DNA of 37,441 nt from the IMG/VR virus record IMGVR_UViG_3300025108_000157, positions 1-37,441 of that record; one strand, 5' to 3'. The first letter of the stretch is position 1, and each line of letters begins with the position of its first letter. The notes beneath the pieces are model-generated. The model saw nothing but the letters and a program-made list of their open reading frames with translations. It was not told where the DNA came from and searched no databases. The stretch comes from a virus. Shown piece after piece: positions 88 to 34,761 of the stretch. The translations under genes and the position numbers were made by a program.

Positions 88-116
88 TTAAAATAAGTTA
101 AAAATTACGTTATATA
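88..116 (+). promoter_or_regulatory. Candidate phage late promoter P1 (YAAAAT-N12-ACGTTATATA)
   Basis: ACGTTATATA at 107-116 with TAAAAT ending 12 nt before it. The same bipartite arrangement recurs at six other places in the window, each before a structural or packaging module. Here it lies 32 nt upstream of the small terminase start. Confidence 0.6.
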
Positions 117-148
117 ATAAAGATTGATTAAACAATAAAATATCAATT

Positions 149-415
149 ATGGATAATAGAAAAAACAATGGTGGCGTAAGACAAGGTGCAGGGAGACCTA
201 AAAAAGCAGACGAACTAAAGCTGATTGAAAAACTTGATGCCTTAATAGATAATGATGAAGTAATTAAAACTTTAGGTAAACAAATATTAAAAGGGGACAG
301 CAGGGCTATGAATCTATATTTCGGTTATAGATATGGCAAACCTAAAGAATCTGTAGATATATCTTCAAGTGACGGCTTTAATGTAAACTTTAGAGACCTA
401 ATCAAATTTAAGTGA
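149..415 (+). CDS. terS: Terminase small subunit
   Basis: An 88-residue protein with a basic, glycine-rich N-terminus (RQGAGRPKK, residues 11-19) followed by a helical region, the pattern of small terminase DNA-binding subunits in phages of Bacteroidetes. Small terminase binds phage DNA at the packaging site and hands it to TerL. It sits directly upstream of terL, with the stop overlapping the terL start. The second copy at 31172-31438 has the same length and 80 of 88 residues identical by hand count, while many synonymous sites differ. Function is inferred from position and the N-terminal pattern; the pac or cos site cannot be read directly. Confidence 0.8.
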   Translation: MDNRKNNGGVRQGAGRPKKADELKLIEKLDALIDNDEVIKTLGKQILKGDSRAMNLYFGYRYGKPKESVDISSSDGFNVNFRDLIKFK

Positions 416-1617
416 TTGAAATAAATAAAAAGTATGCTCCTATTGCTGAATCAGATGGGAGGTACTTTATTGTAACTGGAGGACGTGGGTCTGGCAAATC
501 ATTCTCCATAAACCTCTTATTAGTTCTTTTAACTTATGAAGCTGGGCATACTATACTGTTTACTCGTTACACTTTATCTTCTACTTATATTTCTATTATC
601 CCTGAATTTATTGAAAAACTTGAACTGCTTAAAATATTTGATGACTTTCATATCACAAAAGATGAAATAAGAAATAAGCGTTCTGGAAGCAAGATAATTT
701 TTAAAGGTATCAAAACATCAAGTGGAGATCAAACAGCTAATCTAAAGTCATTACAAGGCGTTACAACGTTTGTATTAGATGAAGCAGAAGAACTTACTAA
801 TGAAGATACATTTGACAAGATAGATTTGTCAGTAAGACAACAAGGCAAACATAATAGAGTGATACTAATACTAAACCCTACAACTAAAGAACATTGGATA
901 TATAAAAGATTCTTTGAAGATAAAGGAATCCAAGAAGGCACAAATGAATCAAAAGATAATATCACTTACATACACACTACCTATTTAGACAACTTAAAGA
1001 ACCTATCAGAAAGTTATATAAACCAAATAGAGAACATTAAACAACGCAGACCAGAAAAATATAAACATCAAATGCTCGGAGGGTGGCTTAATAAAGCAGA
1101 GGGTGTTATATTAACTAACTGGTCAATAGGAGAATTTAAAAAAGTAGGCGTTAGTGTATTTGGTCAAGACTTTGGATTTAATGACCCTAACACATTAGTA
1201 GAAACTAATATAGATACAACAAGAAAGATTATTTATCTAAAAGAATGTTTTTACTTGAATGGTTTAACAACAACAGAAATAGCACGTTTAAATATGAAAC
1301 ACGCTACAGACAATTTAATAATTGGAGATGCAGCAGAAAAAAGATTGATCTATGAATTAAAACAAAAAGGATGTAATATAGTTTCTTCAATAAAAGGAGC
1401 TGGTTCTATAACTTATGGAATATCATTATTACAAGATTATGATTTAATAGTAGACGAACAAAGCATAAATTTAATCAAAGAACTAAACAACTACAGTTGG
1501 CTTGAGAAGAAATCTAACACACCAATAGATAAACATAATCATCTTATTGATGCAATTAGATATGCAGTAAGTTATCAGCTTCAAAATCCTAATAGGGGTA
1601 AATATTACATACAATAA
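412..1617 (+). CDS. terL: Terminase large subunit (packaging ATPase-nuclease)
   Basis: A 401-residue terminase of usual length. Walker A is GGRGSGKS at residues 23-30 and Walker B is VLDEAEE at 121-127. The C-terminal RNase H-like nuclease shows acidic residues D253 (GQDFGF), D306 (IIGDAAE) and D380 (HLIDAIRYA). It cuts concatemeric DNA and pumps it into the prohead through the portal. Translation starts at GTG 412, which overlaps the terS stop as GTGA; the same GTG overlap is kept in the diverged copy at 31435, which supports this start. Of 15 arginine codons counted, 5 are CGN and 10 AGR, against 11 CGN of 15 in the second copy. Confidence 0.95.
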   Translation: MIEINKKYAPIAESDGRYFIVTGGRGSGKSFSINLLLVLLTYEAGHTILFTRYTLSSTYISIIPEFIEKLELLKIFDDFHITKDEIRNKRSGSKIIFKGIKTSSGDQTANLKSLQGVTTFVLDEAEELTNEDTFDKIDLSVRQQGKHNRVILILNPTTKEHWIYKRFFEDKGIQEGTNESKDNITYIHTTYLDNLKNLSESYINQIENIKQRRPEKYKHQMLGGWLNKAEGVILTNWSIGEFKKVGVSVFGQDFGFNDPNTLVETNIDTTRKIIYLKECFYLNGLTTTEIARLNMKHATDNLIIGDAAEKRLIYELKQKGCNIVSSIKGAGSITYGISLLQDYDLIVDEQSINLIKELNNYSWLEKKSNTPIDKHNHLIDAIRYAVSYQLQNPNRGKYYIQ

Positions 1618-1631
1618 CTAAACAAGGGTAA

Positions 1632-1733
1632 ATGGAATGTAAAAAATGTAAACAGACAATGACAATATATTCAGGTAAAGACAACAAGGACTACTACTAC
1701 TGTAGGGAGTGTGATATTATAGAGTTTGAATAA
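1632..1733 (+). CDS. Small zinc-ribbon protein
   Basis: A 33-residue ORF with CKKC near its start and CREC near its end, 18 residues apart, the spacing of a minimal zinc ribbon. It starts 14 nt after terL. A clear relative, with the same CxxC-YYY-CxxC layout, lies at 23760-23882 in the same genome unit. The second copy of the packaging region has no equivalent here but has other CxxC proteins nearby. The target is unknown; zinc ribbons of this size usually bind nucleic acid or protein. Confidence 0.6.
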   Translation: MECKKCKQTMTIYSGKDNKDYYYCRECDIIEFE

Positions 1734-1746
1734 ACTTTATTAAATA

Positions 1747-1778
1747 TTTTGTTAATTAAATAAATAGTTGTATATTGC
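1747..1778 (+). promoter_or_regulatory. Bacteroidetes-type promoter, cassette 1
   Basis: TTTTG at 1747-1751, a 19-nt spacer, then TATATTGC at 1771-1778, close to the Bacteroidetes consensus TTTG / TAnnTTTG. The 19-nt spacer is the same in all five promoters of this class seen in the window. Confidence 0.6.
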
Positions 1779-1781
1779 AGT

Positions 1782-1803
1782 ATAATTGCAATGAAGCAGT
1801 TAT
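1782..1803 (+). promoter_or_regulatory. Leader hairpin, cassette 1
   Basis: ATAATTGC-AATGAA-GCAGTTAT forms an 8-bp stem with one U-G pair and a six-base loop just after the promoter. Related stems at 28153, 32693 and 33424 replace the G-C pair next to the loop-closing pair by A-U, a compensatory change. The loop holds an ATG (1791) that is in frame with the downstream gene but is ACG in two of the four relatives, so I do not take it as the start. Confidence 0.6.
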
Positions 1804-1817
1804 ATAAACAAAACAAA

Positions 1818-2123
1818 ATGAATAAATTAAAACTTAACGAAATTAAAAATTTAAGTAGTAGTAGTGTAAAAATAGCACACTTAACTTTAACAATGGAATC
1901 AATCCATTTTGAACACGATTTAACTTTTAAGTTGTCGACTGCAGGTACTAACATAAGAATTGAGAGTAGTCATTTAACAAGAGAATTAAATCATTTAATA
2001 GAATGGTTAAATCAGTCATCAGAAAATGAAGATAATTTAAGAAGTAATGAATCTGAAATTATATTATTTGCAAGAGATATGATTAAATGTAACGAACAGT
2101 TAAAAGAAATTAAAACTTTATAA
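1818..2123 (+). CDS. Cassette 1 small protein, unknown function
   Basis: A 101-residue protein that I do not recognise. It is rich in Ser, Asn and Lys, with a predicted beta-rich first half and a helical, acidic second half (about residues 50-100). The start at 1818 follows an A/C-rich spacer after the leader hairpin, the same place as the starts of the other three cassette genes; an in-frame ATG at 1791 lies in the hairpin loop. It has its own promoter, leader and terminator, so it is a self-contained transcription unit inserted between terL and the tail genes. Confidence 0.6.
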   Translation: MNKLKLNEIKNLSSSSVKIAHLTLTMESIHFEHDLTFKLSTAGTNIRIESSHLTRELNHLIEWLNQSSENEDNLRSNESEIILFARDMIKCNEQLKEIKTL

Positions 2124-2130
2124 TAACAAC

Positions 2131-2155
2131 AGGGAGTGTAAAAGCTCCCTTTTTA
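2131..2155 (+). terminator. Intrinsic terminator, cassette 1
   Basis: AGGGAG (2131-2136) pairs with CTCCCT (2145-2150) around an 8-nt loop and is followed by a short T run. The same GGGAG/CTCCC terminator ends the other three cassettes. Confidence 0.75.
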
Positions 2156-2166
2156 ATACTTAACAA

Positions 2167-2334
2167 ATGGCAGTAAATAAAATAAAATTAGAAGATAAAT
2201 TTAAAATTATAGATGTTGAAACAACTTTAAAAATGTTAATACAACACGCAGATTTAAAACCTCATCACAAAGACTGGGCATTAACATCTTATAAAAACAT
2301 TTTAGACTTTAAACATCAAAACGATATACTATGA
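2167..2334 (+). CDS. Small helical protein, unknown
   Basis: A 55-residue ORF, predicted mostly helical, with an HHKDW motif near residue 33-37. The second copy carries a relative at 33670-33834 (54 residues) with LHKQW at the matching place and a similar C-terminal DKNIL/QNDIL ending. The stop overlaps the next start as ATGA, so it is translated with the small membrane genes that follow. No function is recognised. Confidence 0.55.
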   Translation: MAVNKIKLEDKFKIIDVETTLKMLIQHADLKPHHKDWALTSYKNILDFKHQNDIL

Positions 2335-2459
2335 AAAAAAGACAGTATAGATCAAATCAAGGGCGTAATCCTAAAAGGGAAGAAGCTATGTTTAACACAA
2401 TCAAAGTAGCATTTGTATTATTAGTTATTGCTACTATTGTAAATTTAATTTTATCATAA
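2331..2459 (+). CDS. Small single-pass membrane protein
   Basis: A 42-residue ORF with a basic N-terminus (RQYRSNQGRNPKR, residues 4-16) and one hydrophobic segment at about residues 24-42. The equivalent gene in the second copy (33831-34118) carries the same RQYRSNQGR sequence and membrane segment but has an extra zinc-ribbon domain in front. This version is therefore either a truncated form or the unfused ancestor. It overlaps both neighbours by 1-4 nt, indicating coupled translation. Confidence 0.6.
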   Translation: MKKRQYRSNQGRNPKREEAMFNTIKVAFVLLVIATIVNLILS

Positions 2460-2632
2460 TGAAATACTATTACGAAGATAACGGAAACAGAAGATATTAC
2501 ATTGCAAAGAAAATATCTAAAAAACAAAACAAAGAAACATTTTTAAAGGTTGCAGGTTATGCAGCTATTGGCTGGGCAGTATTTTATATTGCATTGTTTT
2601 TTTTCTTACATTTGTTAGAAATGGCAGTATGA
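2459..2632 (+). CDS. Small membrane protein
   Basis: A 57-residue protein with a polar, tyrosine-rich N-terminus (YYYEDNGNRRYYIAKK) and one membrane segment at about residues 31-53. The second copy has a relative of identical length at 34115-34288. The start overlaps the previous stop as TAATG and the stop overlaps the next start as ATGA. Conservation of length and overlaps in both copies argues that it is real. Role unknown; it probably sits in the inner membrane. Confidence 0.65.
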   Translation: MKYYYEDNGNRRYYIAKKISKKQNKETFLKVAGYAAIGWAVFYIALFFFLHLLEMAV

Positions 2633-2904
2633 GAAACAAAATACAGAACATACAAGATTTAGAATACAGTAACAATCAAATATTAATTGGAGAACTAATT
2701 AAAAAATGGTTAAAGGCAAAACCTAAAAACAAAGAGGTTCTAAAATTAAGAGATGCGTTTATTGATAATTCAATTTACGTTGCAGGTTTACAAAATGATC
2801 TTACAGCTTCTAAAATGGCTAATAGTGAATATAGAGAAAGAATGAATGAAGCCTTGTATGATTTAGAATTAATAAAAGAAGAAAATAAATATTATAGTGA
2901 GTGA
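2629..2904 (+). CDS. Helical protein, unknown
   Basis: A 91-residue protein predicted to be nearly all helix, with heptad-like charge patterning in the second half. A relative of 84 residues lies at 34285-34539 in the second copy (shared features include the KWLKAKP/QWQKAKP segment and the SEYRE/SQYRE segment). It is the last gene before a strong terminator and so ends the tiny-gene operon. No function is recognised. Confidence 0.65.
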   Translation: MRNKIQNIQDLEYSNNQILIGELIKKWLKAKPKNKEVLKLRDAFIDNSIYVAGLQNDLTASKMANSEYRERMNEALYDLELIKEENKYYSE

Positions 2905-2935
2905 CTATATAATTGAGTTGTTTTGTTTGGAAAAA

Positions 2936-2963
2936 GGGTGTTAGAAATAGCACCTTTTTTTTT
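2936..2963 (+). terminator. Intrinsic terminator with GAAA tetraloop
   Basis: GGGTGTTA (2936-2943), GAAA loop, TAGCACCT (2948-2955), then a run of T. The hairpin is identical at 34702-34729 in the second copy although the sequence around it has diverged. Confidence 0.85.
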
Positions 2964-2966
2964 ATA

Positions 2967-2995
2967 CTAAAATCCTACTTTAATTACGTTATATA
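2967..2995 (+). promoter_or_regulatory. Candidate phage late promoter P2
   Basis: TAAAAT (2968-2973), 12 nt, ACGTTATATA (2986-2995), directly after a terminator and only 3 nt before the ATG of the tail chaperone. If this is a -10/-35 pair the mRNA would be leaderless or nearly so. Confidence 0.65.
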
Positions 2996-2998
2996 AGT

Positions 2999-3649
2999 AT
3001 GAAAGCTAATATAAACGTTCCTAACGAACTTAATGAGATTACACTAAAGCAATATCAAAGGTTCTTAAAAGCTCAAGACAAAGCAAAGGATAATAACTTC
3101 ATACAGACTAAAATGATAGAGATATTTTGTAGGGTAAAACCTCAAGATGCTCTTAACATAAGATTGTCAGATGCAGAACGTATTACAAGAATAATATCAG
3201 ATATGTTTGAACAGAAGCCTGATTTAGTACAGTCCTTCTGGCTTAACAATGTAGAGTATGGTTTTGTTCCTGATCTTGATGAAATTACATTAGGAGAATA
3301 TATTGACCTTGATACTTATATGGGAGACTGGGATAATATAGAAATAGCAATGAATGTACTATACCGACCTATCAAACAAAAACTGGGAAACAAGTATTTA
3401 ATAGAGGACTATGACCCTGATAAAAAAGACAGAATTACTACAATGCCTATGGATGCTGTATTCGGTTCTATACTTTTTTTTTATCGTTTAGGGATAGAAT
3501 TATCGAAAACTATGATGAATTATTTGGAGAACAAGGAGGAGAAACAACTTCTGGACGTGCTGGATTTGCAAAAAAGTGGGGATGGTATTCGAGCCTTTAC
3601 GGACTCGCTGGAGGAGATATTACAAGATTTGAAGATATCACAAAATTAG
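2999..3649 (+). CDS. Tail assembly chaperone, zero-frame product (gpG-like)
   Basis: A 216-residue acidic protein. Together with the frameshifted product below it has the layout of phage tail assembly chaperones (lambda gpG/gpGT type), which coat the tape measure protein while the tail tube polymerises. The second copy at 34784-35434 also makes exactly 216 residues in this frame, and the two are similar up to about residue 170 (for example EYGFVPDL-TLGEYIDLDTY). It follows candidate promoter P2 and a terminator, so it opens the tail operon. The chaperone call rests on the frameshift and the nearby tape measure gene, not on a recognised domain. Confidence 0.7.
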   Translation: MKANINVPNELNEITLKQYQRFLKAQDKAKDNNFIQTKMIEIFCRVKPQDALNIRLSDAERITRIISDMFEQKPDLVQSFWLNNVEYGFVPDLDEITLGEYIDLDTYMGDWDNIEIAMNVLYRPIKQKLGNKYLIEDYDPDKKDRITTMPMDAVFGSILFFYRLGIELSKTMMNYLENKEEKQLLDVLDLQKSGDGIRAFTDSLEEILQDLKISQN

Positions 3650-3735
3650 AAATGCATAAATGTTTAATGATGTTAGCATTTATGAAAGACAAAAACGAAT
3701 TAGAATCGAAACAAATAAAAAGTAAGTTTAAATGA
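2999..3735 (+). CDS. Tail assembly chaperone, -1 frameshift product (gpGT-like)
   Basis: Ribosomes slipping back one base on the T run 3474-3482 would join codons 2999-3481 to the -1 frame 3481-3735, giving 245 residues. In zero-frame phasing the heptamer T_TTT_TTT lies at 3475-3481. The extension contains a WGWYSSLYGLAGGD segment and ends FKDKNELES-like, and has no start codon of its own that would explain its conservation. The diverged second copy keeps the slip site, a 245-residue product and the same GWY-SL-L-GD/GN, ITEL, MMLAFMKDKNELE residues. The -1 stop overlaps the next start as ATGA. This matches the gpGT logic of lambda-like tails. Confidence 0.8.
3475..3481 (+). promoter_or_regulatory. 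Slippery heptamer for -1 frameshift
   Basis: T_TTT_TTT in zero-frame phasing within a nine-T run. The run is also nine T at the same codon in the second copy (35258-35266). I did not identify a clear stimulatory hairpin or pseudoknot just downstream. Confidence 0.75.
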
Positions 3736-4202
3736 GCCAACAAGGAATAAGGGGATTTTACCAATTAACTGAAACAATAAAAGACCAGCTTTTAGCTGAC
3801 ATAAATTGTAATACAGTAACTACAGGAGACCTATATGATGTTAACCTTAACAAGCAAGACATATTCCCTCTTGCTCACATTATAGTCAACAACGTAACAC
3901 AAGAAGAACAAACGCTTACGTTTAACATAAGCATTCTTGCAATGGATATTGTAGATCAATCTAAATTACCAACAGAAGATAGGTTTATAGGAAACAATAA
4001 TGAACAAGATATACTTAACACACAATTAGCAGTATTAAATAAAGTAATACAAGTTTTAAGAATGGGTACTTTATACAAAGACCAATATCAATTAGATAGT
4101 CCTGTAAATTGTGAACCATTTTATGATAGGTTTGAAAACCAATTAGCAGGATGGACTGCAACAATGGATATTGTAATTTATAACGATATAAGAATCTGTT
4201 AA
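3732..4202 (+). CDS. Putative tail terminator / tail completion protein
   Basis: A 156-residue protein placed between the tail chaperone and an HK97 gp10-like protein. The N-terminal helical part plus a C-terminal beta region ending FENQLAGWTATMDI resembles tail terminator and completion proteins that cap the tube and join tail to head. This is a positional and by-eye fold guess. The second copy (35517-35987) has the same length and high identity. The start overlaps the frameshift product stop (ATGA), and the stop overlaps the next start (TAATG). Confidence 0.5.
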   Translation: MSQQGIRGFYQLTETIKDQLLADINCNTVTTGDLYDVNLNKQDIFPLAHIIVNNVTQEEQTLTFNISILAMDIVDQSKLPTEDRFIGNNNEQDILNTQLAVLNKVIQVLRMGTLYKDQYQLDSPVNCEPFYDRFENQLAGWTATMDIVIYNDIRIC

Positions 4203-4735
4203 TGAACTTTGAAAATATAAATAAGGCTCTTAATGATTTTGGAAGGTATGTTGTGCAACAAGCCAGAACAAGACTGACTAAAAACAAACAAGGAGGAGGA
4301 GCATTATATGAATCAATAAGATACACATTAGATGAAGAACAAAAAGGATTTATACTTGACTTCTATATGGAAGATTACGGTATATTTCAAGATCAAGGTG
4401 TTAAGGGTGCTAATCCTGCATTAATAAAAGGAGGCAGACAAAAAGCTCCTAACAGTAAGTTTAGTTATAAACAAAAGATGCCACCAATGCAACCTTTAAG
4501 AGACTGGGCACAAAGAAAGAATATAAGATTTAGAGATAAAGAAGGTAAATTTAAAAAAGGAAGTTATAAGAGTATGGCATTTGTATTACAGAGAAGTATA
4601 TACGCACAAGGATTTAAACCTACATACTTTTTTACTAAACCATTTGAAGCAGCTTTTAAAAGACTGCCAGAAGAATTAGTAAACGACTTTATATTAGATA
4701 TAGAAAAAGGAATAATATTAGGAACAAAAAAATAA
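4202..4735 (+). CDS. Putative HK97 gp10-like neck / head-tail protein
   Basis: A 177-residue protein. It shows the pattern of gp10-like neck proteins: an ALYESIRY segment near residue 37, YGIFQDQGVKG near residues 60-70, and a C-terminal FTKPFEAAF segment like the F-x-P-A-x-x-x-A ending of that family. Such proteins sit at the head-tail junction. The second copy has a 177-residue relative at 35987-36520. Located directly after the putative tail terminator, which fits a neck role. Confidence 0.55.
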   Translation: MNFENINKALNDFGRYVVQQARTRLTKNKQGGGALYESIRYTLDEEQKGFILDFYMEDYGIFQDQGVKGANPALIKGGRQKAPNSKFSYKQKMPPMQPLRDWAQRKNIRFRDKEGKFKKGSYKSMAFVLQRSIYAQGFKPTYFFTKPFEAAFKRLPEELVNDFILDIEKGIILGTKK

Positions 4736-4738
4736 ACA

Positions 4739-8130: not shown

Positions 8131-8139
8131 AATAAAATT

Positions 8140-13784: not shown

Positions 13785-13806
13785 TATTTATTGATATTAA
13801 AAATTA

Positions 13807-13832
13807 AGCATCCTTCGGGGTGCTTTTTTTTT
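13807..13832 (+). terminator. Intrinsic terminator with TTCG tetraloop
   Basis: AGCATCC-TTCG-GGGTGCT followed by eight or more T. This is a stable UUCG hairpin and a strong terminator. Confidence 0.9.
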
Positions 13833-13846
13833 GCCTTAACATTTTC

Positions 13847-16955: not shown

Positions 16956-19900
16956 CACAAGAATATCAGATACTTATTCAGGTTTAATCAAAACTATTGA
17001 TAATGCTGCTTTAACTTCAAGTTTAAAAGAGCTAACAGACGGTTCAGGATTAGCAAGTGGGGTATTTATGAATACAGCAGGAGATTTTAAAGTTACTGCT
17101 ATATTAGAATTTGGCTCTTTAAAAGATACAGGCGAAAATATAATTATAAGCAAGTTTGTAGATGCTGCAGATGGCGTTTTAAACAACGATAACGACACTT
17201 CAATCCCTACAACTGCTGCTATTATAGATTATGTACAAGGACACGTTACATTACAGGATTTAGACTTTGAAGGAGATACTGGAAATGGTTCTGTAGATTT
17301 AGATTCACAATTATTAGACATTGCTGGAACTGCAAATCAAATTACAACAGTAGCATCAAACCAAACATTAACAATTTCTTTTAATTCAAGTGGTGTTGTT
17401 CTGCCTGACGGATCAACTGCAACTACACAAACACAAGGAGATAATTCTACAAAGGTTGCTACAACTGCATATGTAGACATATTAGATGCAGCTTCTGATT
17501 TAGATTTTTCTGGTGATAGTGGAACAGGAGATGTAAACCTTAACACACAAACATTTGCCGTAACAGGAACTGCAAATCAAATAACAACTGCAGCTTTGGG
17601 TCAAGGATTAAGTTTAAGTTTACCTGCAACAGTACATAGAGACTTACAAGGAAACGTAACAGGTAACGTTACAGGAGACTTAACAGGAAATGTAACTGCA
17701 ACATCTGTATTAGCTAATGGTGTTACTGCAACAACACAAGCATCAAGTGACGATTCAACAAAAGTAGCGACAACTGCTTATGTAAAAGGTTTAAACAATG
17801 CAAGTGATTTAGATTTTACAACAGATTCAGGAAGTGGTGCAGTAGTTTTAAATTCAGAAACGTTTAGTGTTTTAGGAACAACTAATGAAATAGAAACATC
17901 AGGTTCTGGTCAGGCAGTAACAATAGGTTTACCAAGTACAGTAAATGTAAATGTAACTGGTAATCTTACAGGAAATGTTACTGGAAACGTGACAGGGAAT
18001 GTTACTGGAAATGTAACTGGAGATTTAACAGGAAACGCAGATACAGCTACAGCTTGGGAAACTGCAAGGGATTTATCTTTAACAGGTCAAGCAACAGGTA
18101 CAATATCAAGTGTAGACGGAACAGGAAATGTAAGTGGTGCAGTAACATTAGACAATAATTCAGTAACAAGTAAAGTATTAACAGGATTAACTTCTCCTTC
18201 TGCAAGTTCTGTTTTAGCAACAGATACAATAGTTGAAGGATTTGGTAAACTACAATCACAAGTAAATGGATTAGCAGGTGGTTTAAGATTTATGGGTTCT
18301 TGGGATGCAGATACTAATTCTCCAGTATTAAGTTCTGGGGGTGGGGAAGCTGCAAACGGAACAACAACTGCAACAACAGCAAATAAATTAGTAGATAGTT
18401 CTGCAAGTTTTACAAGTACAGTAACGGTAGGAGATCAAGTAGTCAATCAAGTAGACGGTCAAACTGCTTTAGTTTCAAACGTAGATAGCGATACAACACT
18501 TTCTTTAAGTGCAGATATAATGTTAACAGGAGAAGCCTATACAATAGATAATAGTCCTTTTATAACGCAAGGTCATTATTATGTTGTAAGCGTTGGGGGG
18601 ACTACTACATTAAATGGTATATCTAACTGGACTGTAGGAGACTGGGTTATAGCTGGTGCAAACAATCAATGGACTAAATTAGATCATTCACAAATAGACG
18701 GAACAGGAACAACAGGAAATTTAACTAAATGGTCAGCAACACAAGTAATAGCAGATTCAATAGTTTCAGAATCAGGAAGTGCAATTACAGTAGATGGCTC
18801 ATTAAGTACAAACACTAATTTAAGTTCAACAGGTAACTTTGCAGTAAATACAGATAAATTTACAGTTGCTGCTTCAAGTGGAAATACTGCTTTTACAGGA
18901 GATTTAGCAATCAACACAAATAAGTTTACAGTAAATGCTACAACAGGAAATACTTTAGTTGCAGGAACTTTAGATGTTACAGGAAAAACAACATTTGCAG
19001 ATGACATAACAATTTCAGACGGAACACCTATACTTGATTTCGAAGACACCAATAATACAGATAACAACTGGAGAATGGAAGCAAGGGGTTCTTTTGGAGG
19101 ATTCTTTTTTCAATCTTTTGATAATAATTTCCAAACTGGAAGTACAGTTTTATTTGCTAAATCTAGTAATGGATATATAGGACTTGGTGGAAATACTAAT
19201 CCTCAAGCAGAATTAGACATTACAGGAGGTTTAATTGCAGAAGATGTCTTTACAACAACTTCGACTGGGTCAAGTATTACAGTTTCAAGAGATGCAGTTC
19301 CAACTTCTGGAAATAGTTTAGGTAAATTCGAATTTAGTGGCGAAGATATAGATACAGGTAACCAATATGTAACTGCTCAAATAAGTGCATCTGCAGAAGC
19401 TAACTGGGCTACAAGTTCAAGAACTACCCAACTTAATTTTAATACTACAACAGGAGGTGTATTATCAAGAGCTTTAACACTAAAAGGTAACAACGATGCT
19501 GAATTTGAAGGAAACGTAGGAATTAATGATACTATTTCAGGCAACTTTACTACAAATTATGATACAAAATTATTAGTAGGTGGTGAAATAGTTGCAAGAA
19601 GTTTAACAGCGAGTGCATCAATGATTTCAATAGGTGGTGATTCTACTTCTGCATTTATTAAAGTAGGTAAACAAGATGGTTCTCAAACAGCAAGACCATT
19701 AAGAATAGAGGTAGGCACAAGTGAAGTAATGAATATAGACAGTTCTGGAAACTTTGGATTAAATGCAGAAGCTGAAAATTCAACAGGTACTTGGAGAAAT
19801 TTCCAATTTGGGAGTTTAAGTATGTTTGCAAGAGCTAATAATGCAAATCCAGATGGCGGTATTGGAACAAACTTTAAGTTTACAACAGCTAGTGAAGAAC

Positions 19901-25553: not shown

Positions 25554-25566
25554 TATATTTATATAA

Positions 25567-26412: not shown

Positions 26413-26415
26413 ATT

Positions 26416-26895
26416 ATGAAAAACTACTTATCGGACATCTATAAAAAGCATCAAGTATGGATTGACATTGTTTGCTCCTTTGGCTGCAACAAAGAAACAG
26501 CAGAAGATATTACACAAGAAATGTATATCAAAATTCAAAAAAGAATAAACAAAGGATTAGATATTGATTTTGGAGATGACTATAATTATTACTATATTTT
26601 CAAGACATTAAAATCTTTGTTCCTTGATTTAAAACGCAAAGAAGCTAAAGTCAATACGTTATCTATAGACAATATGAGGGATTTTTTAGCAGACTTTGAT
26701 GCAGCTAATTATGAAGAAGTCTATGCTACAATACAAAATGAACTAAACAATATGTATTGGTATGATAAAAAGATATTTGAGATCATAGAAGGTGGCGAAA
26801 GTATTGCACAACTGTCAAGAAAGTCAGGCATACCTTACTATTCACTTTATAACACATATAAAAAAGTAAAAGAAAAACTAAAAAAATTATTATGA
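26416..26895 (+). CDS. Phage sigma-70-like factor
   Basis: A 159-residue protein, the length of small ECF-type sigma factors. Region 2-like: AEDITQEMYIKIQKRI (29-44) and a helical IFKTLKSLFLDLKRKE (61-76). Region 4-like: KKIFEIIEGGESIAQLSRKSGIPYYS (118-143) with a helix-turn-helix, then a basic end. Sigma factors guide RNA polymerase to promoters. In this window it is the obvious candidate to recognise YAAAAT-N12-ACGTTATATA. It sits just after the helicase-like gene with ATGA coupling to the next gene, i.e. in the replication region expressed before the late genes. Confidence 0.7.
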   Translation: MKNYLSDIYKKHQVWIDIVCSFGCNKETAEDITQEMYIKIQKRINKGLDIDFGDDYNYYYIFKTLKSLFLDLKRKEAKVNTLSIDNMRDFLADFDAANYEEVYATIQNELNNMYWYDKKIFEIIEGGESIAQLSRKSGIPYYSLYNTYKKVKEKLKKLL

Positions 26896-27705: not shown

Positions 27706-28105
27706 AACAATAAAAAAGTTTGAAAAAGTATTAGTTGCTTTCTTAAATATGGATGGCTGGGATTTAGAATGGACTGGAGACGGTTTTAAACATTATGATG
27801 CTTGTGGATTCACGAAAAATGGAAATCCTTGTGTTATAGAAATGAAATTTAGAAACAAATACTATGAAGAAAAAATGTTAGAAAAATATAAATATGATGC
27901 ATTAATGAAAATGGATAAAAAAGTAGTCAAGCTATATTTTGTTAATGACCCTAAAGGTAACTATTTATACTGGTTAAATGCATTAGAACTTCCAGAACCA
28001 GTAGATATGTACTGCCCTGATACTACACTATGGACTAAAAAAAGGTTACTTAAACCTGTTTACTTACTAAAAGAAAACCAAGCCACAAGAATAAATTTAA
28101 ATTAA
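27695..28105 (+). CDS. Putative PD-(D/E)XK nuclease 2
   Basis: A 136-residue protein from ATG 27695 (a TTG at 27683 would add four residues; I prefer ATG). Motif: HYDACGFTKNGNPCVIEMKFRNKYYEEKM, read as D35 followed by E49-M-K51, then a YKYDAL helix. It shares the D-x-ExK core with restriction-like nucleases but is not obviously related to the one at 26892. Followed by the cassette at 28117. Confidence 0.6.
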   Translation: MGIETIKKFEKVLVAFLNMDGWDLEWTGDGFKHYDACGFTKNGNPCVIEMKFRNKYYEEKMLEKYKYDALMKMDKKVVKLYFVNDPKGNYLYWLNALELPEPVDMYCPDTTLWTKKRLLKPVYLLKENQATRINLN

Positions 28106-28116
28106 GTTATTAAATA

Positions 28117-28148
28117 TTTTGTTTATAACTTTAATTGTTATATATTAG
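28117..28148 (+). promoter_or_regulatory. Bacteroidetes-type promoter, cassette 2
   Basis: TTTTG (28117-28121), 19 nt, TATATTAG (28141-28148). Confidence 0.65.
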
Positions 28149-28152
28149 CTAT

Positions 28153-28174
28153 ATAATTACAACGAAGTAATTAT
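28153..28174 (+). promoter_or_regulatory. Leader hairpin, cassette 2
   Basis: ATAATTAC-AACGAA-GTAATTAT, a perfect 8-bp stem with a six-base loop. It has A-U where cassette 1 has G-C in the second stem pair from the loop. Confidence 0.7.
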
Positions 28175-28190
28175 TAAAACAAACAGACAA

Positions 28191-28355
28191 ATGATAAATA
28201 TAATAAAACACCCTAATTCTTATGAAGTTGAATGGACTGTACAAGGAAAAAAATACAAAGAATTAAGAACACAATTTTTTGCAACTCTAAAAGAAGCAAA
28301 ACTATTTAAAAGATGTTTAAAAAACAGATTTAAAATAACAACAACGGGAGTTTAA
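28191..28355 (+). CDS. Cassette 2 small protein, unknown
   Basis: A 54-residue basic protein with a YEVEWTVQGKKYKEL beta-hairpin-like part and a TLKEAKLFKRCLKN helix. The pattern (Y-x-V-x-W then a helix with E-A-x-x-F) also fits the small proteins at 33179 and, less closely, 32733, so the cassette genes may share a beta-beta-alpha fold. The stop codon lies in the loop of the terminator hairpin. No domain recognised. Confidence 0.6.
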   Translation: MINIIKHPNSYEVEWTVQGKKYKELRTQFFATLKEAKLFKRCLKNRFKITTTGV

Positions 28356-28372: not shown

Positions 28373-28390
28373 GAATAAAATTATTAAACA

Positions 28391-28422: not shown

Positions 28423-28426
28423 TTAA

Positions 28427-29856: not shown

Positions 29857-30184
29857 ACAAGAATTTGAAGAAACAAAAAAATATCTATTAGACATTTGTC
29901 AACAAATAATGGATGTTAAACAACCTGAATACACACAAAAGAATTTAGACATACTACACAACTTTAAATGTTCTGCAAAGTTTATAGGCATAGAACCAAT
30001 GGAAGTATGGGCAGTATTTTTTAATAAACACATACAATCAATACTTGCACACGCTGGAGACCCTACTATGCATCAAGCAGAACCATTAGAAACAAGATAT
30101 GCAGATGCTATTAACTATTTATTATTAGGCTTTAGCTTATTACAAGACAGACCAAAAAAAGACATAATATCAGGAACTGAATAA
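29849..30184 (+). CDS. Conserved phage protein, possible MazG/Nmad1-like helical fold
   Basis: A 111-residue all-helical protein. The segments KNLDILHNFK, GIEPMEVWAVFFNKHIQSILAHAG and ETRYADAINYLLLGFSLL resemble small phage proteins of the MazG/Nmad1-like class, some of which are linked to nucleotide metabolism or base modification. The match is weak and no enzyme activity can be claimed. Confidence 0.4.
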   Translation: MTKQEFEETKKYLLDICQQIMDVKQPEYTQKNLDILHNFKCSAKFIGIEPMEVWAVFFNKHIQSILAHAGDPTMHQAEPLETRYADAINYLLLGFSLLQDRPKKDIISGTE

Positions 30185-30191
30185 AATAAAT

Positions 30192-30953
30192 ATGATAAAA
30201 CAATTAAAAATAACAGAATTAAAAGACTTACTTAAAGAAAAAAAATTATTAGAATTTAATAGGGAGATAAGTCAAAGGCATACAAACTCAATAATGGAAA
30301 GTATAAATCAATGTGGTTTATTAAGAGTTCCAGTAATAGGAGACATTTCAAAATTTGACAAAAGAAAATATGTTATAATAGATGGTCAACATTTATGTAA
30401 TGCTCTTACTAAAATGCCAAATATGATTAATAAAAAAATAAACGTAATCATTAAGAAATATAAAAACAAAACAGATGTAATTAGAGACATTGCTAAATTA
30501 AATAATGTTCAAAAAACTTGGAATGATGAAAATTACTTAAATGCTTGGTATAAATTTGGCAGAGATAATATAGATCATTTTACTAATTATGCTTATTTAT
30601 GGAACACATATAATAATATATTTGATGGTTTGCCTTGTGGATTTTTAGTAGATTTATATGCTACAAGCAAAGAATCTTTTAGGGCAGGAGAATTAGAATT
30701 TAGAGATGTACAATTTAGCGACAGGTTAGCACAAATATCTTTTATGCTAAAACAAGATTTTAACAAAGGTGCTTTTACACTTCAAGGATTAAGAAACTGG
30801 GCATTTGAAAGAAAGTTTAAGCAATTTAAAGATTTAGATTTTATAAAATTAGAATCAAGATTGAAATTATCTTTAAAAAATAATGAAGATAAAAACTGTA
30901 ATGGCAGAGACGATTTTAGTGAATTTATAGATAGAATATACAAAAGAATATAG
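30192..30953 (+). CDS. ParB/Srx-like nuclease-fold protein
   Basis: A 253-residue protein. GLLRVPVIGD (42-51) and VIIDGQH (61-67) are the ParB-type core motif; after it come helical segments without a clear partner domain. ParB-like proteins in phages may act as DNA-binding or nuclease proteins. It is the last gene of the unit and its C-terminal 21 residues form the start of the window, so it lies directly upstream of terS in both copies. Confidence 0.7.
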   Translation: MIKQLKITELKDLLKEKKLLEFNREISQRHTNSIMESINQCGLLRVPVIGDISKFDKRKYVIIDGQHLCNALTKMPNMINKKINVIIKKYKNKTDVIRDIAKLNNVQKTWNDENYLNAWYKFGRDNIDHFTNYAYLWNTYNNIFDGLPCGFLVDLYATSKESFRAGELEFRDVQFSDRLAQISFMLKQDFNKGAFTLQGLRNWAFERKFKQFKDLDFIKLESRLKLSLKNNEDKNCNGRDDFSEFIDRIYKRI

Positions 30954-31012
30954 TTCCTGTCTTAATAGTTTATTAAAATAAGTTAAAAATTACGTTATAT
31001 AATAAAGATTGA
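30886..31012 (+). repeat. Exact 127-bp direct repeat, right copy
   Basis: Identical to 1-127. From here the sequence continues into a second, diverged packaging and tail module rather than a copy of the first. The next 20 bases after the mismatch are still similar, so the alleles diverge gradually, not at a sharp edge. Confidence 0.97.
30973..31001 (+). promoter_or_regulatory. Candidate phage late promoter P6
   Basis: Identical to P1 (TAAAAT-N12-ACGTTATATA), lying in the 127-bp repeat before the second terS operon; 33 nt upstream of the small ORF at 31035. Confidence 0.6.
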
Positions 31013-31034
31013 ATAAACAATAAAAAATCAATTA

Positions 31035-31169
31035 ATGGTAAACAAAAATGGCAATGATCAATTAAATGAAATACGTAATACATTTAATTATAAAGTATCA
31101 AAGCTCAATATTTTAGGAGAAAGTAAAAAAATTAAATGGAATAAATCTAGACGATTTAGAACAATATAA
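31035..31169 (+). CDS. Small basic protein inserted before second terS
   Basis: A 44-residue basic ORF present only in the second copy. Its ATG lies where the first copy has the terS ATG (the leader up to ATGG is conserved), and the real terS begins 2 nt after its stop. It ends in a basic WNKSRRFRT stretch. It may be an inserted gene, or a leader peptide for terS. No family recognised. Confidence 0.5.
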   Translation: MVNKNGNDQLNEIRNTFNYKVSKLNILGESKKIKWNKSRRFRTI

Positions 31170-31171
31170 TT

Positions 31172-31438
31172 ATGGATAAACGTAAAAGCAATGGCGGTGC
31201 TAGACAAGGAGCTGGCAGACCTAAAAAAGCAGATGAATTAAAATTAATAGAAAAATTAGATGCGTTAATCGATAATGACGAGGTAATTAAAACATTAGGT
31301 AAACAAGTTTTAAATGGTGATAGTCGTGCAATGAGTTTATATTTTGGTTATCGTTATGGCAAACCAAAAGAATCGGTTGACATATCTTCATCCGATGGTT
31401 TTAATATTAATTTTAAAGACTTAATTAAATTTAAGTGA
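31172..31438 (+). CDS. terS: Terminase small subunit, second copy
   Basis: An 88-residue protein with 80 residues identical to the first copy (by hand count), while many synonymous positions differ. The basic RQGAGRPKK segment and the ending DLIKFK are unchanged. It overlaps its terL by 4 nt as in the first copy. The strong protein conservation with diverged DNA indicates long separation under purifying selection. Confidence 0.85.
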   Translation: MDKRKSNGGARQGAGRPKKADELKLIEKLDALIDNDEVIKTLGKQVLNGDSRAMSLYFGYRYGKPKESVDISSSDGFNINFKDLIKFK

Positions 31439-32643
31439 TTGAAATAAATAAAAAATATTCGCCAATAGCAGAATCAAATGGCAGATATTTTATTGTTACA
31501 GGTGGTCGAGGATCAGGTAAATCATTTTCAGTCAATTTATTATTAGTATTATTAACGTATGAATCTGGACATACTATATTATTTACTCGTTACACTTTAT
31601 CCTCTACATATATTTCTATTATACCTGAGTTCATTGAAAAATTAGAATTATTAAACATATTCAATGATTTTTACATAACAAAAGATGAAATTAGAAATAA
31701 ACGATCAGGTAGTAAAATAATATTTAAAGGTATTAAAACCTCGTCAGGAGATCAAACAGCTAATTTAAAATCATTACAGGGCGTTACTACATTCGTTTTA
31801 GACGAAGCAGAAGAATTAACTAATGAAGATACATTTGATAAAATAGATCTATCGGTTAGACAACAATTCAAACACAATCGAGTTATATTAATTTTAAATC
31901 CAACAACAAAAGAACATTGGATATATAAACGATTTTACGAAGACAAAGGCATACAAGAAGGAACAAACGAAACAAAAGACAACATCACATATATACATAC
32001 AACGTATTTAGACAATATAAACAATTTATCGAAAAGTTATATTAATCAAATAAATACAATCAAACAACGTAGACCAGAAAAATACAAACATCAAATACTT
32101 GGTGGTTGGTTAAACAAAGCCGAAGGTGTTATTTATACACGATGGAAAATAGGTAAATTTAAAAAAGCAAGTGTTAGTGTTTTTGGACAAGATTACGGTT
32201 TCGCTTCAGACGAAAATACATTATGTGAAACAAACATAGATGTTACAAACAAAACAATATATTTAAAAGAATGTTTTTACATCAAAGGTTTAACAACAAC
32301 TGAAATAGCACGTTTAAATTTACAACACGCAAAAGAAAATTTAATTATTGGTGATAGTGCTGAAAAACGTTTGATATATGAATTAAAACAAAAAGGGTGT
32401 AACATAGTTGAATCAATCAAAGGTCAAGGATCAATTACATATGGCATTGCATTATTACAAGATTATGATTTAATAGTTGATGAACAAAGCATTAATTTGA
32501 TCAAAGAATTAAATAATTACAGCTGGTTAGAAAAAAAATCAAATACACCAATCGACAAACACAACCATTTATTAGATGCAATACGCTATGCTGTATCATA
32601 TCAATTACAAAATCCTAATCGAGGAAAATATTACATCAATTAA
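31435..32643 (+). CDS. terL: Terminase large subunit, second copy
   Basis: A 402-residue protein, one residue longer than the first. Walker A GGRGSGKS, Walker B VLDEAEE and the nuclease acidics (GQDYGF, IIGDSAE, HLLDAIRYA) are all kept. The GTG start with GTGA overlap is also kept. Of 15 arginine codons, 11 are CGN, including six CGA, a codon absent from the first copy. This suggests a different recent donor for the second module. Confidence 0.93.
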   Translation: MIEINKKYSPIAESNGRYFIVTGGRGSGKSFSVNLLLVLLTYESGHTILFTRYTLSSTYISIIPEFIEKLELLNIFNDFYITKDEIRNKRSGSKIIFKGIKTSSGDQTANLKSLQGVTTFVLDEAEELTNEDTFDKIDLSVRQQFKHNRVILILNPTTKEHWIYKRFYEDKGIQEGTNETKDNITYIHTTYLDNINNLSKSYINQINTIKQRRPEKYKHQILGGWLNKAEGVIYTRWKIGKFKKASVSVFGQDYGFASDENTLCETNIDVTNKTIYLKECFYIKGLTTTEIARLNLQHAKENLIIGDSAEKRLIYELKQKGCNIVESIKGQGSITYGIALLQDYDLIVDEQSINLIKELNNYSWLEKKSNTPIDKHNHLLDAIRYAVSYQLQNPNRGKYYIN

Positions 32644-32656
32644 AAGTTATTAAATA

Positions 32657-32688
32657 TTTTGTTAATTAAATAAATTGTTTTATATTTG
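32657..32688 (+). promoter_or_regulatory. Bacteroidetes-type promoter, cassette 3
   Basis: TTTTG (32657-32661), 19 nt, TATATTTG (32681-32688), an exact match to the TAnnTTTG consensus. Confidence 0.8.
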
Positions 32689-32692
32689 TAAT

Positions 32693-32714
32693 GTAATTGC
32701 AATGAAGCAGTTAT
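32693..32714 (+). promoter_or_regulatory. Leader hairpin, cassette 3
   Basis: GTAATTGC-AATGAA-GCAGTTAT: 7-8 bp stem including U-G pairs and a six-base loop. The ATG in the loop (32702) is out of frame with the cassette gene and would make a 16-codon upstream ORF that overlaps the gene's start. Confidence 0.6.
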
Positions 32715-32732
32715 ATAAACAAAACAAAACAA

Positions 32733-32957
32733 ATGGAAAATTATTTAGATGAAACTAAAACTTTTAAAAACTGGAGAAACGAAAATATTTCTTTTAAACC
32801 TTTTTATCATACATCAAAAAGATTGTATAGAGTGTCAAGATGTGTTAATGGTGTAATGAATGAAGTTTATGAAAATAAAGGTTATGATACATTGTTAGAA
32901 GCTTGGTATGCTTGTGAAAAACAATATAATTATTGGGTAAATTTTAACAAAAAATAA
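32733..32957 (+). CDS. Cassette 3 small protein, unknown
   Basis: A 74-residue protein rich in aromatic residues (LYRVSRCVNGVMNEVYENKGYDTLLEAWYACEKQYNYW, in parts). A possible beta-beta-alpha layout like other cassette genes. It has its own promoter, leader hairpin and terminator. No domain recognised. Confidence 0.6.
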   Translation: MENYLDETKTFKNWRNENISFKPFYHTSKRLYRVSRCVNGVMNEVYENKGYDTLLEAWYACEKQYNYWVNFNKK

Positions 32958-32968
32958 TCAATAACAAT

Positions 32969-32991
32969 GGGAGTGTAACAGCTCCCTTTTT
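32969..32991 (+). terminator. Intrinsic terminator, cassette 3
   Basis: GGGAG (32969-32973), TGTAACAG loop, CTCCC (32982-32986), T run. Confidence 0.8.
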
Positions 32992-33005
32992 AAAAACAAA
33001 ACAAA

Positions 33006-33167
33006 ATGAAAAATTATACTATTGATTGCACGTATTACAAAAAATCATTTAATAATATTAATGATTTAGTTGATGACATAACTTTATCAGGAATGGATCC
33101 TAATTATAATATTTTATTAAACGGAAAAAAAACAGGAGAACAATTAATTGATTTTATAACTTTTTAA
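33006..33167 (+). CDS. Small protein, unknown
   Basis: A 53-residue protein (DCTYYKKSFNNINDLVDDI, then NYNILLNGKKTGEQLIDFITF, in parts). It lies between two cassettes, after the terminator of cassette 3, without a clear promoter of its own, so readthrough is likely. No homologue in the first copy. Confidence 0.5.
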   Translation: MKNYTIDCTYYKKSFNNINDLVDDITLSGMDPNYNILLNGKKTGEQLIDFITF

Positions 33168-33178
33168 AAATTAAACAA

Positions 33179-33370
33179 ATGAATAAAAATAAAAAATTTT
33201 ACAAGCATAAATTATTTGAACACACAGACGATCAAGATATAACGTGGTACGAAGTTGTATGGTTCGAAAATTACGGCACAAAAGATCAAGAAATAAAATT
33301 TAAAAACTTTGATCATAGACAACAAGCTGAAACGTTTATTAATTTAAAAATGGGTATTGGATTATTATAA
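33179..33370 (+). CDS. Small protein with cassette-like pattern
   Basis: A 63-residue protein with WYEVVWFENYG and HRQQAETFINLKMG, resembling the YEVEW and EAKLF pattern of the cassette 2 gene. It follows 33006-33167 with an 11-nt gap. Unknown function. Confidence 0.5.
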   Translation: MNKNKKFYKHKLFEHTDDQDITWYEVVWFENYGTKDQEIKFKNFDHRQQAETFINLKMGIGLL

Positions 33371-33388
33371 TAAATAAGTTATTAAATA

Positions 33389-33420
33389 TTTTGTTAATTA
33401 AAATATTAGTCTTATATTTG
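33389..33420 (+). promoter_or_regulatory. Bacteroidetes-type promoter, cassette 4
   Basis: TTTTG (33389-33393), 19 nt, TATATTTG (33413-33420), full match to the consensus. Confidence 0.8.
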
Positions 33421-33423
33421 AAT

Positions 33424-33445
33424 ATAATTACAACGAAGTAATTAT
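33424..33445 (+). promoter_or_regulatory. Leader hairpin, cassette 4
   Basis: ATAATTAC-AACGAA-GTAATTAT, identical to the hairpin of cassette 2 although the two lie 5 kb apart. Confidence 0.7.
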
Positions 33446-33459
33446 TAAAACAAAACAAA

Positions 33460-33627
33460 ATGACAAAAAAAAGACAATACAAAATTGCAAAAGCAACAGT
33501 AAACAAATCAGGAAACACATTGTTACAATTAAGAGAAGAAACAACTTATGGATATGCAACATACTTTGTATTTAAACATCAGTTAGAAAAAAAGATGATA
33601 GAAAAAAACTTTGAAATAATTGGCTAA
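33460..33627 (+). CDS. Cassette 4 small protein, unknown
   Basis: A 55-residue basic protein (YKIAKATVNKSGNTLLQLREETTYGYATYFVFKHQLEKKMIE, in parts) with an apparent beta hairpin and C-terminal helix. Same promoter-hairpin-spacer-start and GGGAG/CTCCC terminator as the other cassettes. No domain recognised. Confidence 0.6.
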   Translation: MTKKRQYKIAKATVNKSGNTLLQLREETTYGYATYFVFKHQLEKKMIEKNFEIIG

Positions 33628-33634
33628 CAACAAC

Positions 33635-33657
33635 AGGGAGTGTAAAAGCTCCCTTTT
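33635..33657 (+). terminator. Intrinsic terminator, cassette 4
   Basis: AGGGAG (33635-33640), TGTAAAAG, CTCCCT (33649-33654), then T. Same hairpin sequence as in cassette 1. Confidence 0.75.
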
Positions 33658-33669
33658 AAAATTTAACAA

Positions 33670-33834
33670 ATGACAACAAAACAAATTACAGACAAATCAA
33701 ATGCTCAATTAATTGGCATTGCACTTGGCACGTTATCGTGTTTAAATACATACGCAGATTTATGTCCATTACACAAACAATGGTTACAAGAATTAACAAA
33801 CGTAGTAAAACAATTAGACAAAAACATATTATGA
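33670..33834 (+). CDS. Small helical protein, second copy of 2167-2334
   Basis: A 54-residue protein with a LHKQW motif where the first copy has HHKDW, and a similar C-terminus. Stop and next start overlap as ATGA, as in the first copy. Function unknown. Confidence 0.55.
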   Translation: MTTKQITDKSNAQLIGIALGTLSCLNTYADLCPLHKQWLQELTNVVKQLDKNIL

Positions 33835-34118
33835 AAAACGTAAACAAACATACACGAGCTGGCAAAAACGGAAAAACAATTTATTGTCCTGAATGTAATA
33901 CACCAAATAAAGTTTATCATTTCAATTGGAGTGCTATTACGTGTGAAGGTTGTACACAAATGATCGGCAAATATTTTTTTAGTTTACACCCACGACAATA
34001 CAGATCTAATCAAGGTCGTAGTCCAATAAGAACAGAACAAAATTATAAAGCAATTGGTGTTTTACTTGTCATAGCTTGGACTGCAGGTATAATCCTTTTA
34101 ACAATGAAATTATTATGA
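33831..34118 (+). CDS. Zinc-ribbon membrane protein (fusion form)
   Basis: A 95-residue protein. Residues 19-42 hold CPEC and CEGC about 18 residues apart, a zinc ribbon; the RQYRSNQGR segment follows near residue 56, then a membrane span at about 73-93. The first copy has only the second half as a 42-residue protein (2331-2459). I use the start at 33831, coupled by ATGA to the previous stop; an in-frame ATG at 33738 lies inside the upstream gene. It could anchor a nucleic-acid or protein binding ribbon to the membrane. Confidence 0.6.
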   Translation: MKNVNKHTRAGKNGKTIYCPECNTPNKVYHFNWSAITCEGCTQMIGKYFFSLHPRQYRSNQGRSPIRTEQNYKAIGVLLVIAWTAGIILLTMKLL

Positions 34119-34288
34119 AAAATTATTACGAAGTAAACGGGCAACGTAGATATTATATTGCGAAACGAATTGACAAAAAACAAAACAAAGAAAATATGTT
34201 TAAGGTCGTATTATATTGTTTTATTGGTTGGTTTATATTTTATTTATCTGTATTTTTATTTCTACATTTTTTAGAAACAATTGTATGA
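34115..34288 (+). CDS. Small membrane protein, second copy of 2459-2632
   Basis: 57 residues in both copies, with the same NGQRRYYIAK-like start and one membrane span (about 31-53). Starts at 34115, overlapping the previous stop as ATGA. Function unknown. Confidence 0.65.
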   Translation: MKNYYEVNGQRRYYIAKRIDKKQNKENMFKVVLYCFIGWFIFYLSVFLFLHFLETIV

Positions 34289-34539
34289 ACGCAGTAGAAA
34301 ATATACATAACATTGAATTTTTAGCTAATCAAATGTTTGTGTTAGAAAAATTAAAACAATGGCAAAAAGCTAAACCAGACAATCAAGATTTAAAACAATT
34401 AATTAATAAATATTTAGAAATAACGTTTTACGTAATACGATTAGAACAAGACGCAGTTGCTAAAAATATGTTAATCAGTCAATACAGAGAAGAAAAAAAT
34501 ATATTAAAATTAAAATTGAGAGAATTAAAAGATGAGTGA
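34285..34539 (+). CDS. Helical protein, second copy of 2629-2904
   Basis: An 84-residue helical protein starting at 34285 by ATGA overlap with the gene before. Shares the KQWQKAKP and SQYRE segments with its first-copy relative. Function unknown. Confidence 0.6.
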   Translation: MNAVENIHNIEFLANQMFVLEKLKQWQKAKPDNQDLKQLINKYLEITFYVIRLEQDAVAKNMLISQYREEKNILKLKLRELKDE

Positions 34540-34672
34540 AGCAAGATATTATATTGATCGATTATTAGATCCAGCTGAACAACCACAATACGAATGTAAT
34601 GTGTGTGGTAGACCTTTACACGATGATAAAGAATATTGCAGTGACAATTGTTGGCAAGCAGATATGTTATAA
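34532..34672 (+). CDS. Small Cys-rich zinc-finger-like protein
   Basis: A 46-residue ORF with CNVC (residues 22-25) and CSDNC (residues 36-40), likely metal-binding. It overlaps the previous gene by 8 nt. There is no equivalent in the first copy, where the terminator follows directly. Its function is unknown. Confidence 0.55.
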   Translation: MSEARYYIDRLLDPAEQPQYECNVCGRPLHDDKEYCSDNCWQADML

Positions 34673-34701
34673 AAATAGTTTGTTTTGTTTTAGTGAGAAA
34701 A

Positions 34702-34729
34702 GGGTGTTAGAAATAGCACCTTTTTTTTT
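34702..34729 (+). terminator. Intrinsic terminator with GAAA tetraloop, second copy
   Basis: The hairpin GGGTGTTA-GAAA-TAGCACC and T run are identical to 2936-2963. Confidence 0.85.
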
Positions 34730-34732
34730 GTA

Positions 34733-34761
34733 ATAAATTCTTTGTTTATTTACGTTATATA
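34733..34761 (+). promoter_or_regulatory. Candidate phage late promoter P7
   Basis: TAAATT (34734-34739), 12 nt, ACGTTATATA (34752-34761), 22 nt before the chaperone start. The upstream box is the least perfect of the seven. Confidence 0.55.

Follow-up and report, generated by a model that had tools for sequence, protein, structure and literature searches.

Bacterial extracytoplasmic function (ECF) sigma factors, such as SigW and SigE, read promoters with a CGT-type -10 element and an AAC-type -35 element. Sigma factors encoded by phages include gp47 of Salmonella phage 7-11, whose late promoters have the form GTAAtg-(16)-aCTA, and gp36 of phage phiEco32, whose promoter is tAATGTAtA; in both systems transcription starts 6-9 nt from the element (PMC8948821). 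No published late promoter for marine Bacteroidetes phages was found in the literature searched (phage sigma, flavophage, late promoter). Here, a repeated bipartite motif, in which a YAAAA box stands at a fixed distance upstream of ACGTTATATA, was analysed in IMGVR_UViG_3300025108_000157, a marine Bacteroidetes virus record whose full 37,441 nt are referred to as the window. The motif appears to define a genuine class of late promoters that works like the late systems of 7-11 and phiEco32 and very probably has an ECF-like sigma factor of the phage as its reader; the lineage, the consensus, the ECF-like -35/-10 anatomy and the fusion of promoter to start codon are new.

Within the window, ACGTTATATA lies at 107, 2986, 10044, 11523, 13866, 30992 and 34752, always on the plus strand and with zero copies on the minus strand, exactly as the original prediction had listed it. 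At all seven sites a YAAA box is found at the same distance, its first A 17 nt before ACGTT; the box reads YAAAA in six and YAAAAT in five, again in agreement with the prediction. The claim that this fixed spacing exceeds chance was also borne out. When up to two mismatches were allowed the bipartite pattern was found nine times against 2.8 expected, and seven of the nine were perfect. Moreover, with a position matrix trained on distant relatives only (the window and its close group were left out), the seven sites gave the top seven scores, of 21.5-29.8 bits. The next window score, 12.4 bits, falls inside a gene, and no score above 20.0 bits was obtained in 100 shuffles, so the shuffled sequences, named beforehand as a comparison that could overturn the idea, stay below all seven sites. 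Three copies (2986, 13866 and 34752) are directly preceded by a hairpin and T run, as expected if they follow terminators. The further claim that a copy marks every structural module stood for the terminase, tail, protease, scaffold-capsid and portal modules and failed for the tail fibre and lysis genes, which carry no separate copy and are presumably part of the portal operon.

The count of seven reflects the structure of the record. Positions 1-~5640 are repeated at 30886-37441, with only 70-80% identity overall and 95.7% across the initial 164 bases. Contig L008, from another record, reads through from the end of the phage into that phage's start (99-100% identity), whereas past ~31048 the window turns into another phage type, matched by L028, L303 (from 30974 on) and L027. 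On sequence comparison, IMGVR_UViG_3300025108_000157 is therefore a hybrid of two related phages and not a single genome, with the join at the terminase late promoter. The genome unit is ~30.9 kb, which agrees with relatives of 30.4-31.1 kb that have five sites apiece; the seven copies are therefore five in one phage of this size and two orthologues in a second phage. In both extra sites the motif is unchanged although the surrounding sequence is only 70-80% identical. The join, which lies within the stretch most similar between both phages, is probably an assembly switch and possibly a natural recombinant. Annotating the hybrid as a single genome leads to the terminase and tail genes being counted twice.

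Conservation of the motif was examined in ~160 related contigs, fetched by terminase or portal queries. These hold 248 coding-strand copies of ACGTTATATA and 0 on the opposite strand, against 7 forward-strand copies of the reversed and 8 of the scrambled decamer. Near-complete close relatives (29.7-32.6 kb) carry exactly five copies on a single strand. In 50 non-redundant sites, A is found at -18, -17 and -16 in 49, 48 and 49, respectively; as the sites were picked by CGTTATATA alone, this result is not circular. A motif-only scan (YAAA-N15-CGTTATATA-N3-ATG) across 2.9 million viral contigs gave at least 100 sites. Among the 100 matches listed, 94 start a frame of 60 codons or more or leave the contig and, judged by initial residues, nearly all belong to one of four late gene types (the 216-amino-acid (aa) tail-operon gene, the protease, the scaffold and the portal-operon gene) or to a ParB-like gene. 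Together, a repeated consensus confined to late genes and to the coding strand is what is found in these phages. In some relatives (e.g. G011, G018, L386, L412 and L434) a late promoter copy lies 5' of the ParB-like gene, identified by its initial residues; the ParB-like open reading frame (ORF) of the window, at 30192-30953, has no such copy.

The motif does not resemble the host housekeeping promoter. The TAnnTTTG -7 and TTTG -33 elements of the Bacteroidetes TTTG-N19-TAnnTTTG promoter are absent at all seven sites, and strict matches to that promoter lie elsewhere on the plus strand, for example at 32658 and 33390. The pattern YAAA-N15-CGTTATATA-N3-ATG gave zero matches in 151 genomes of the flavobacterial family of a Psychroflexus bin. 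A Bacteroidetes bin of 2.4 Mb that holds a relative has only two exact CGTTATATA-N3-ATG sites, and one of these is on the phage contig. A relaxed pattern (two mismatches) was also tried on bacterial genomes and was swamped by chance matches. Strong support was thus obtained for the predicted class of late promoters separate from the host TTTG/TAnnTTTG type, because the sites combine strand bias, intergenic placement, fixed -35/-10 spacing (~50 non-redundant sites), conservation with diverging flanks and absence from the 151 genomes.

No protein that reads the motif had been named originally, and the candidate put forward here is a 159-aa product encoded at 26416-26895. Its alignment to TIGR02937 runs over 24-165 of 165 and reaches the C-terminal end of the protein. 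A profile match in the Protein Data Bank (PDB) is to the sigma2 domain of an ECF factor SigE (E 0.012), and region 2.2-2.4 motifs of sigma2 are present, with AED-QEMYIKI and LFLDLKRK conserved. Among 38 homologues (set A1), Sigma70_r2 was detected in 15 (best 4.6e-05) and ECF sigma families in most. The AlphaFold model comprises two helical parts (mean pLDDT 86.7, with high pLDDT for helices 115-158), and in a Foldseek search against the PDB the top 34 matches were nearly all ECF or other sigma-70-family chains (best E 3.8e-4), the ECF matches spanning the full length. The protein therefore has a sigma4 domain with a C-terminal helix-turn-helix and, at only 159 aa, no sigma1.1 or sigma3; homology and predicted fold both indicate that the phage encodes a sigma factor. 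As an alternative reader, the ORF at 30192-30953, just 5' of the terminase genes, was considered and rejected, as it shows no sigma similarity and only a weak ParB-like match.

The sigma and the motif travel together. Among 49 sigma-bearing records, 33 contain YAAA-N15-CGTTATA; there are 77 matches, no record has them on both strands, and the control gave 4. Conversely, a sigma homologue is present in each of the 11 records of 20 kb or more that were selected by motif and have genuine late-gene sites, ten recognised by profile and the eleventh divergent (E 6e-17), and three motif-selected records with chance-like sites have no sigma. In some sigma-bearing phages the terminase is only ~30% identical to that of the window, and the motif is kept at other late genes. 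The nearest cultured relatives are the Nonlabens/Persicivirga phages P12024S and P12024L (Inhavirus), in which gp33 is annotated as Sigma-70 region 2. The P12024S gp33 is 27% identical to the window sigma; the terminases are 59% identical. Exact ACGTTATATA was not found in P12024S; a variant, CGTTAATATA, was recognised from its late-gene upstream regions and afterwards by pattern. Seven late operons there carry such CGTTA-type elements, with the consensus AAAACAAA...CGTTAATATA. Similarly, a phage in the Psychroflexus bin has a sigma 26% identical to that of the window and promoters of the form GTTACAAA...GTTATATTATA; on its contig GTTACAAA...(G/A)TTATATTATA, or a similar AT-rich box, lies 5' of the protease, portal and tail genes. 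A diverged sigma thus appears to go with a changed promoter at the same operons, which is co-variation over few independent lineages and not proof.

The distance from the motif to the start codon, which had not been remarked on originally, is also constrained. Of 121 non-redundant sites, 85 have their ATG 10-16 nt past the C of CGTT, and in 48 the distance is exactly 12 nt. The window shows 12-16 nt (3-7 nt past the motif) at four of the five sites, with 12 nt for the 216-aa tail-operon gene at P2 (see table), and P12024S shows 12 nt at six sites and 11 nt at one, despite an extra A in its -10 box. The terminase sites are the exception, with a gap between motif and ATG of 33-46 nt, sometimes ~180 nt. 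These near-motif start codons are real, because the downstream proteins are conserved from the ATG onward with third-position changes. If the 6-9 nt start distance of the 7-11 and phiEco32 promoters is counted from CGTT, then +1 would coincide with the ATG or lie only a few nt from it. By analogy, most late mRNAs are probably leaderless or nearly so. The earlier expectation of 5' ends 5-8 nt past the motif is untenable at four of the five window sites, where the ATG is already reached after 3-7 nt, as a 5' end 5-8 nt beyond ACGTTATATA would mostly lie inside the gene. As 87% of the mapped leaders in F. johnsoniae are >10 nt (PMC6847099), late mRNAs that lack a leader would be an oddity in this phylum. 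At the terminase promoters only, a short dyad, TTGNNTANNCAA (variants TTAGTTAACTAA and CTTGAATAATCAAG), lies a few nt 3' of CGTTATATA, at ~122-135 in the window. Dyads of this type occur in 50 of 61 distant-ATG sites, including those of relatives such as L050, L310 and L333, and are possibly an operator, a 5' hairpin or a packaging signal.

From sequence and predicted structure, we consider it highly probable that the motif is a late promoter class read by host RNA polymerase carrying the phage ECF-like sigma. YAAAA would act as a -35-like box and (A)CGTTATATA as a -10-like box, with 18 nt fixed between the first A of the one and the C of CGTT. Early genes would be driven by host-type promoters; accumulation of the sigma, whose gene lies in the early/middle block, would then switch on five late transcripts (terminase, tail, protease, scaffold-capsid, and portal onwards). 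The mRNAs from four of the five sites may begin on the AUG itself or only a few nt from it, the terminase transcript alone having a true leader. We infer motif-driven transcription, late timing, recognition by this sigma and leaderless 5' ends from the motif and its spacing, strand bias, conservation and start-codon distance, together with the fold and co-occurrence of the sigma, all of which can be read directly in the sequence. Several points weigh against this model. The window sigma scores below curated family cut-offs, with 15.9 bits against 24 for Pfam Sigma70_r2 (E 0.012) and 21.8 bits against 42.9 for TIGR02937, and is therefore a distant relative, named 'ECF-like' here. Its Foldseek TM-scores are low, the two domains being differently placed. 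The strict pattern is missing in 16 of the 49 sigma records, most of which are short fragments, and the co-occurrence of sigma and motif could stem from shared descent of one phage group instead of function.

A CGTT core with an upstream A-rich box is ECF-like, and Bacteroidetes encode many ECF sigma factors; one of the host's own, possibly aided by an activator from the phage, might therefore read these promoters while the phage protein has another role. This seems improbable, given that the bipartite motif beside an ATG is absent from the 151 genomes of one flavobacterial family, that one of the only two exact sites in the 2.4 Mb bin is on a phage contig, and that phage sigma and motif diverge in parallel. 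The nearly constant ATG distance at most sites would also suit a translation element, an A/T-rich, Kozak-like region acting with the start codon in Flavobacterium style (A at -3, -6, -12 and -13), and initiation in F. johnsoniae does need upstream A residues (PMC6847099). However, the terminase sites bear the same motif far from their ATG, the YAAAA spacing is constant to CGTT and not to the ATG, CG is invariant although A is the base that favours translation, and the motif is found at few genes, nearly all of them operon starts. We regard this explanation as very unlikely, with a partial double role in promotion and translation being possible.

Repeated, conserved and oriented sites can also serve as promoters for a phage single-subunit RNA polymerase or as non-promoter DNA sites (terminase recognition, replication or a regulator's operator), and the pre-terminase site could hold a packaging signal. 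Such roles are given the least credit of all, as gapped bipartite sites, one per late operon and fixed near the ATG, are unlike pac/cos or an origin, and no RNA polymerase was seen among the large ORFs scanned with PHROGs.

Recognition by the phage sigma would place the system close to 7-11, in which a phage sigma sends host RNA polymerase to bipartite late-only promoters and early genes rely on host sigma. The likeness is one of working. The 7-11 consensus and host phylum are different and its transcripts start 6-9 nt from the element, whereas the ATG here is usually 3-7 nt past the motif. The parallel with phiEco32 is likewise functional: a phage sigma serves middle and late genes, and the consensus varies with the sigma among relatives. 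In contrast, the phiEco32 promoter is a single element without a -35 and gp36 lacks region 4 homology, whereas the window sigma has a region-4-like helix-turn-helix and its promoters a clear -35 box. Bacterial ECF factors share the two-domain fold and the CGTT -10 core, and the P12024S spacing, AAAAC-N16/17-CGTT, is ECF-like. Unlike these, the gene here is a phage gene with no anti-sigma seen, the YAAAA box of the window lineage lies ~3 nt closer, and conservation extends into TATATA past CGTT. P12024S shares elements at late operons with a near-constant ATG distance and differs in consensus and in sigma and terminase sequence.

Features of the late promoter system in the window
Feature	Position	Strand	Remarks
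Late promoter P1 (TAAAAT-N12-ACGTTATATA)	89..116	+	5' of small/large terminase operon 149-1617; TerL by PHROGs
Terminator-like hairpin (GGTGTTAGAAATAGCACC + T run)	2920..2966 (approximate)	+	just 5' of P2
Late promoter P2	2968..2995	+	right behind terminator; first gene of tail operon (216 aa)
Late promoter P3	10026..10053	+	5' of head maturation protease gene (10058)
Late promoter P4	11505..11532	+	5' of scaffold-like gene (11540) and major capsid gene (12212)
Terminator-like hairpin (GCATCCTTCGGGGTGC + T run)	13805..13835 (approximate)	+	just 5' of P5
Late promoter P5	13848..13875	+	right behind terminator; 5' of 142-aa gene (13880) and portal gene (14305)
ECF-like sigma factor gene (159 aa; sigma2 + sigma4)	26416..26895	+	profile match, AlphaFold/Foldseek; proposed late-promoter reader
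Terminase late promoter, P1 orthologue, junction with second phage	30974..31001	+	hybrid join in or adjoining
Tail-operon late promoter of second phage, P2 orthologue	34734..34761	+	

Four copies of an early cassette (1731-1830, 28100-28200, 32641-32745 and 33372-33470) lie just 5' of small genes. Each consists of a promoter of the host type, TTTTG...TATATTTG, which two copies match exactly, and behind it a stem with co-varying arms (TAATTGC...GCAGTTA, TAATTAC...GTAATTA). Near them, at 2121, 28337, 32960 and 33625, is a near-identical terminator, GGGAGTGTAAAAGCTCCCTTTTT. This arrangement suggests exchangeable gene cassettes, some of them between the terminase and tail genes. The 1406-aa tail fibre gene contains internal direct repeats (17257-18019). 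A megablast of the window against phage records gave no match, and Rfam and tRNA searches of the window found nothing. In L012/L292 (IMGVR_UViG_3300025645_000048, 89305 bases) this phage fills the last ~33 kb; when the contig was checked for host DNA, the remainder resembled a different phage with a GroEL-like ORF, and it is probably a further chimeric contig.

Overall, for a large group of marine Bacteroidetes phages, most of them uncultured, the analysis defines the late regulon together with the sigma factor that probably controls it. The parallel changes in sigma alleles and promoters offer a test system for ECF promoter specificity, and the late promoter signature serves operon calling and the linking of these phages' contig fragments. 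From the fusion of promoter and start codon, late mRNAs are predicted to be leaderless, and their translation is directly testable. A bolder and more doubtful idea is that the late switch might couple transcription to translation, with promoters of a phage ECF-like sigma fused to the start codon at a near-fixed distance. Virion genes would then be translated from messages without a leader, in a phylum that lacks Shine-Dalgarno sequences and normally produces leadered mRNAs. If this is true, the fusion possibly gives late messages privileged access to the ribosome.

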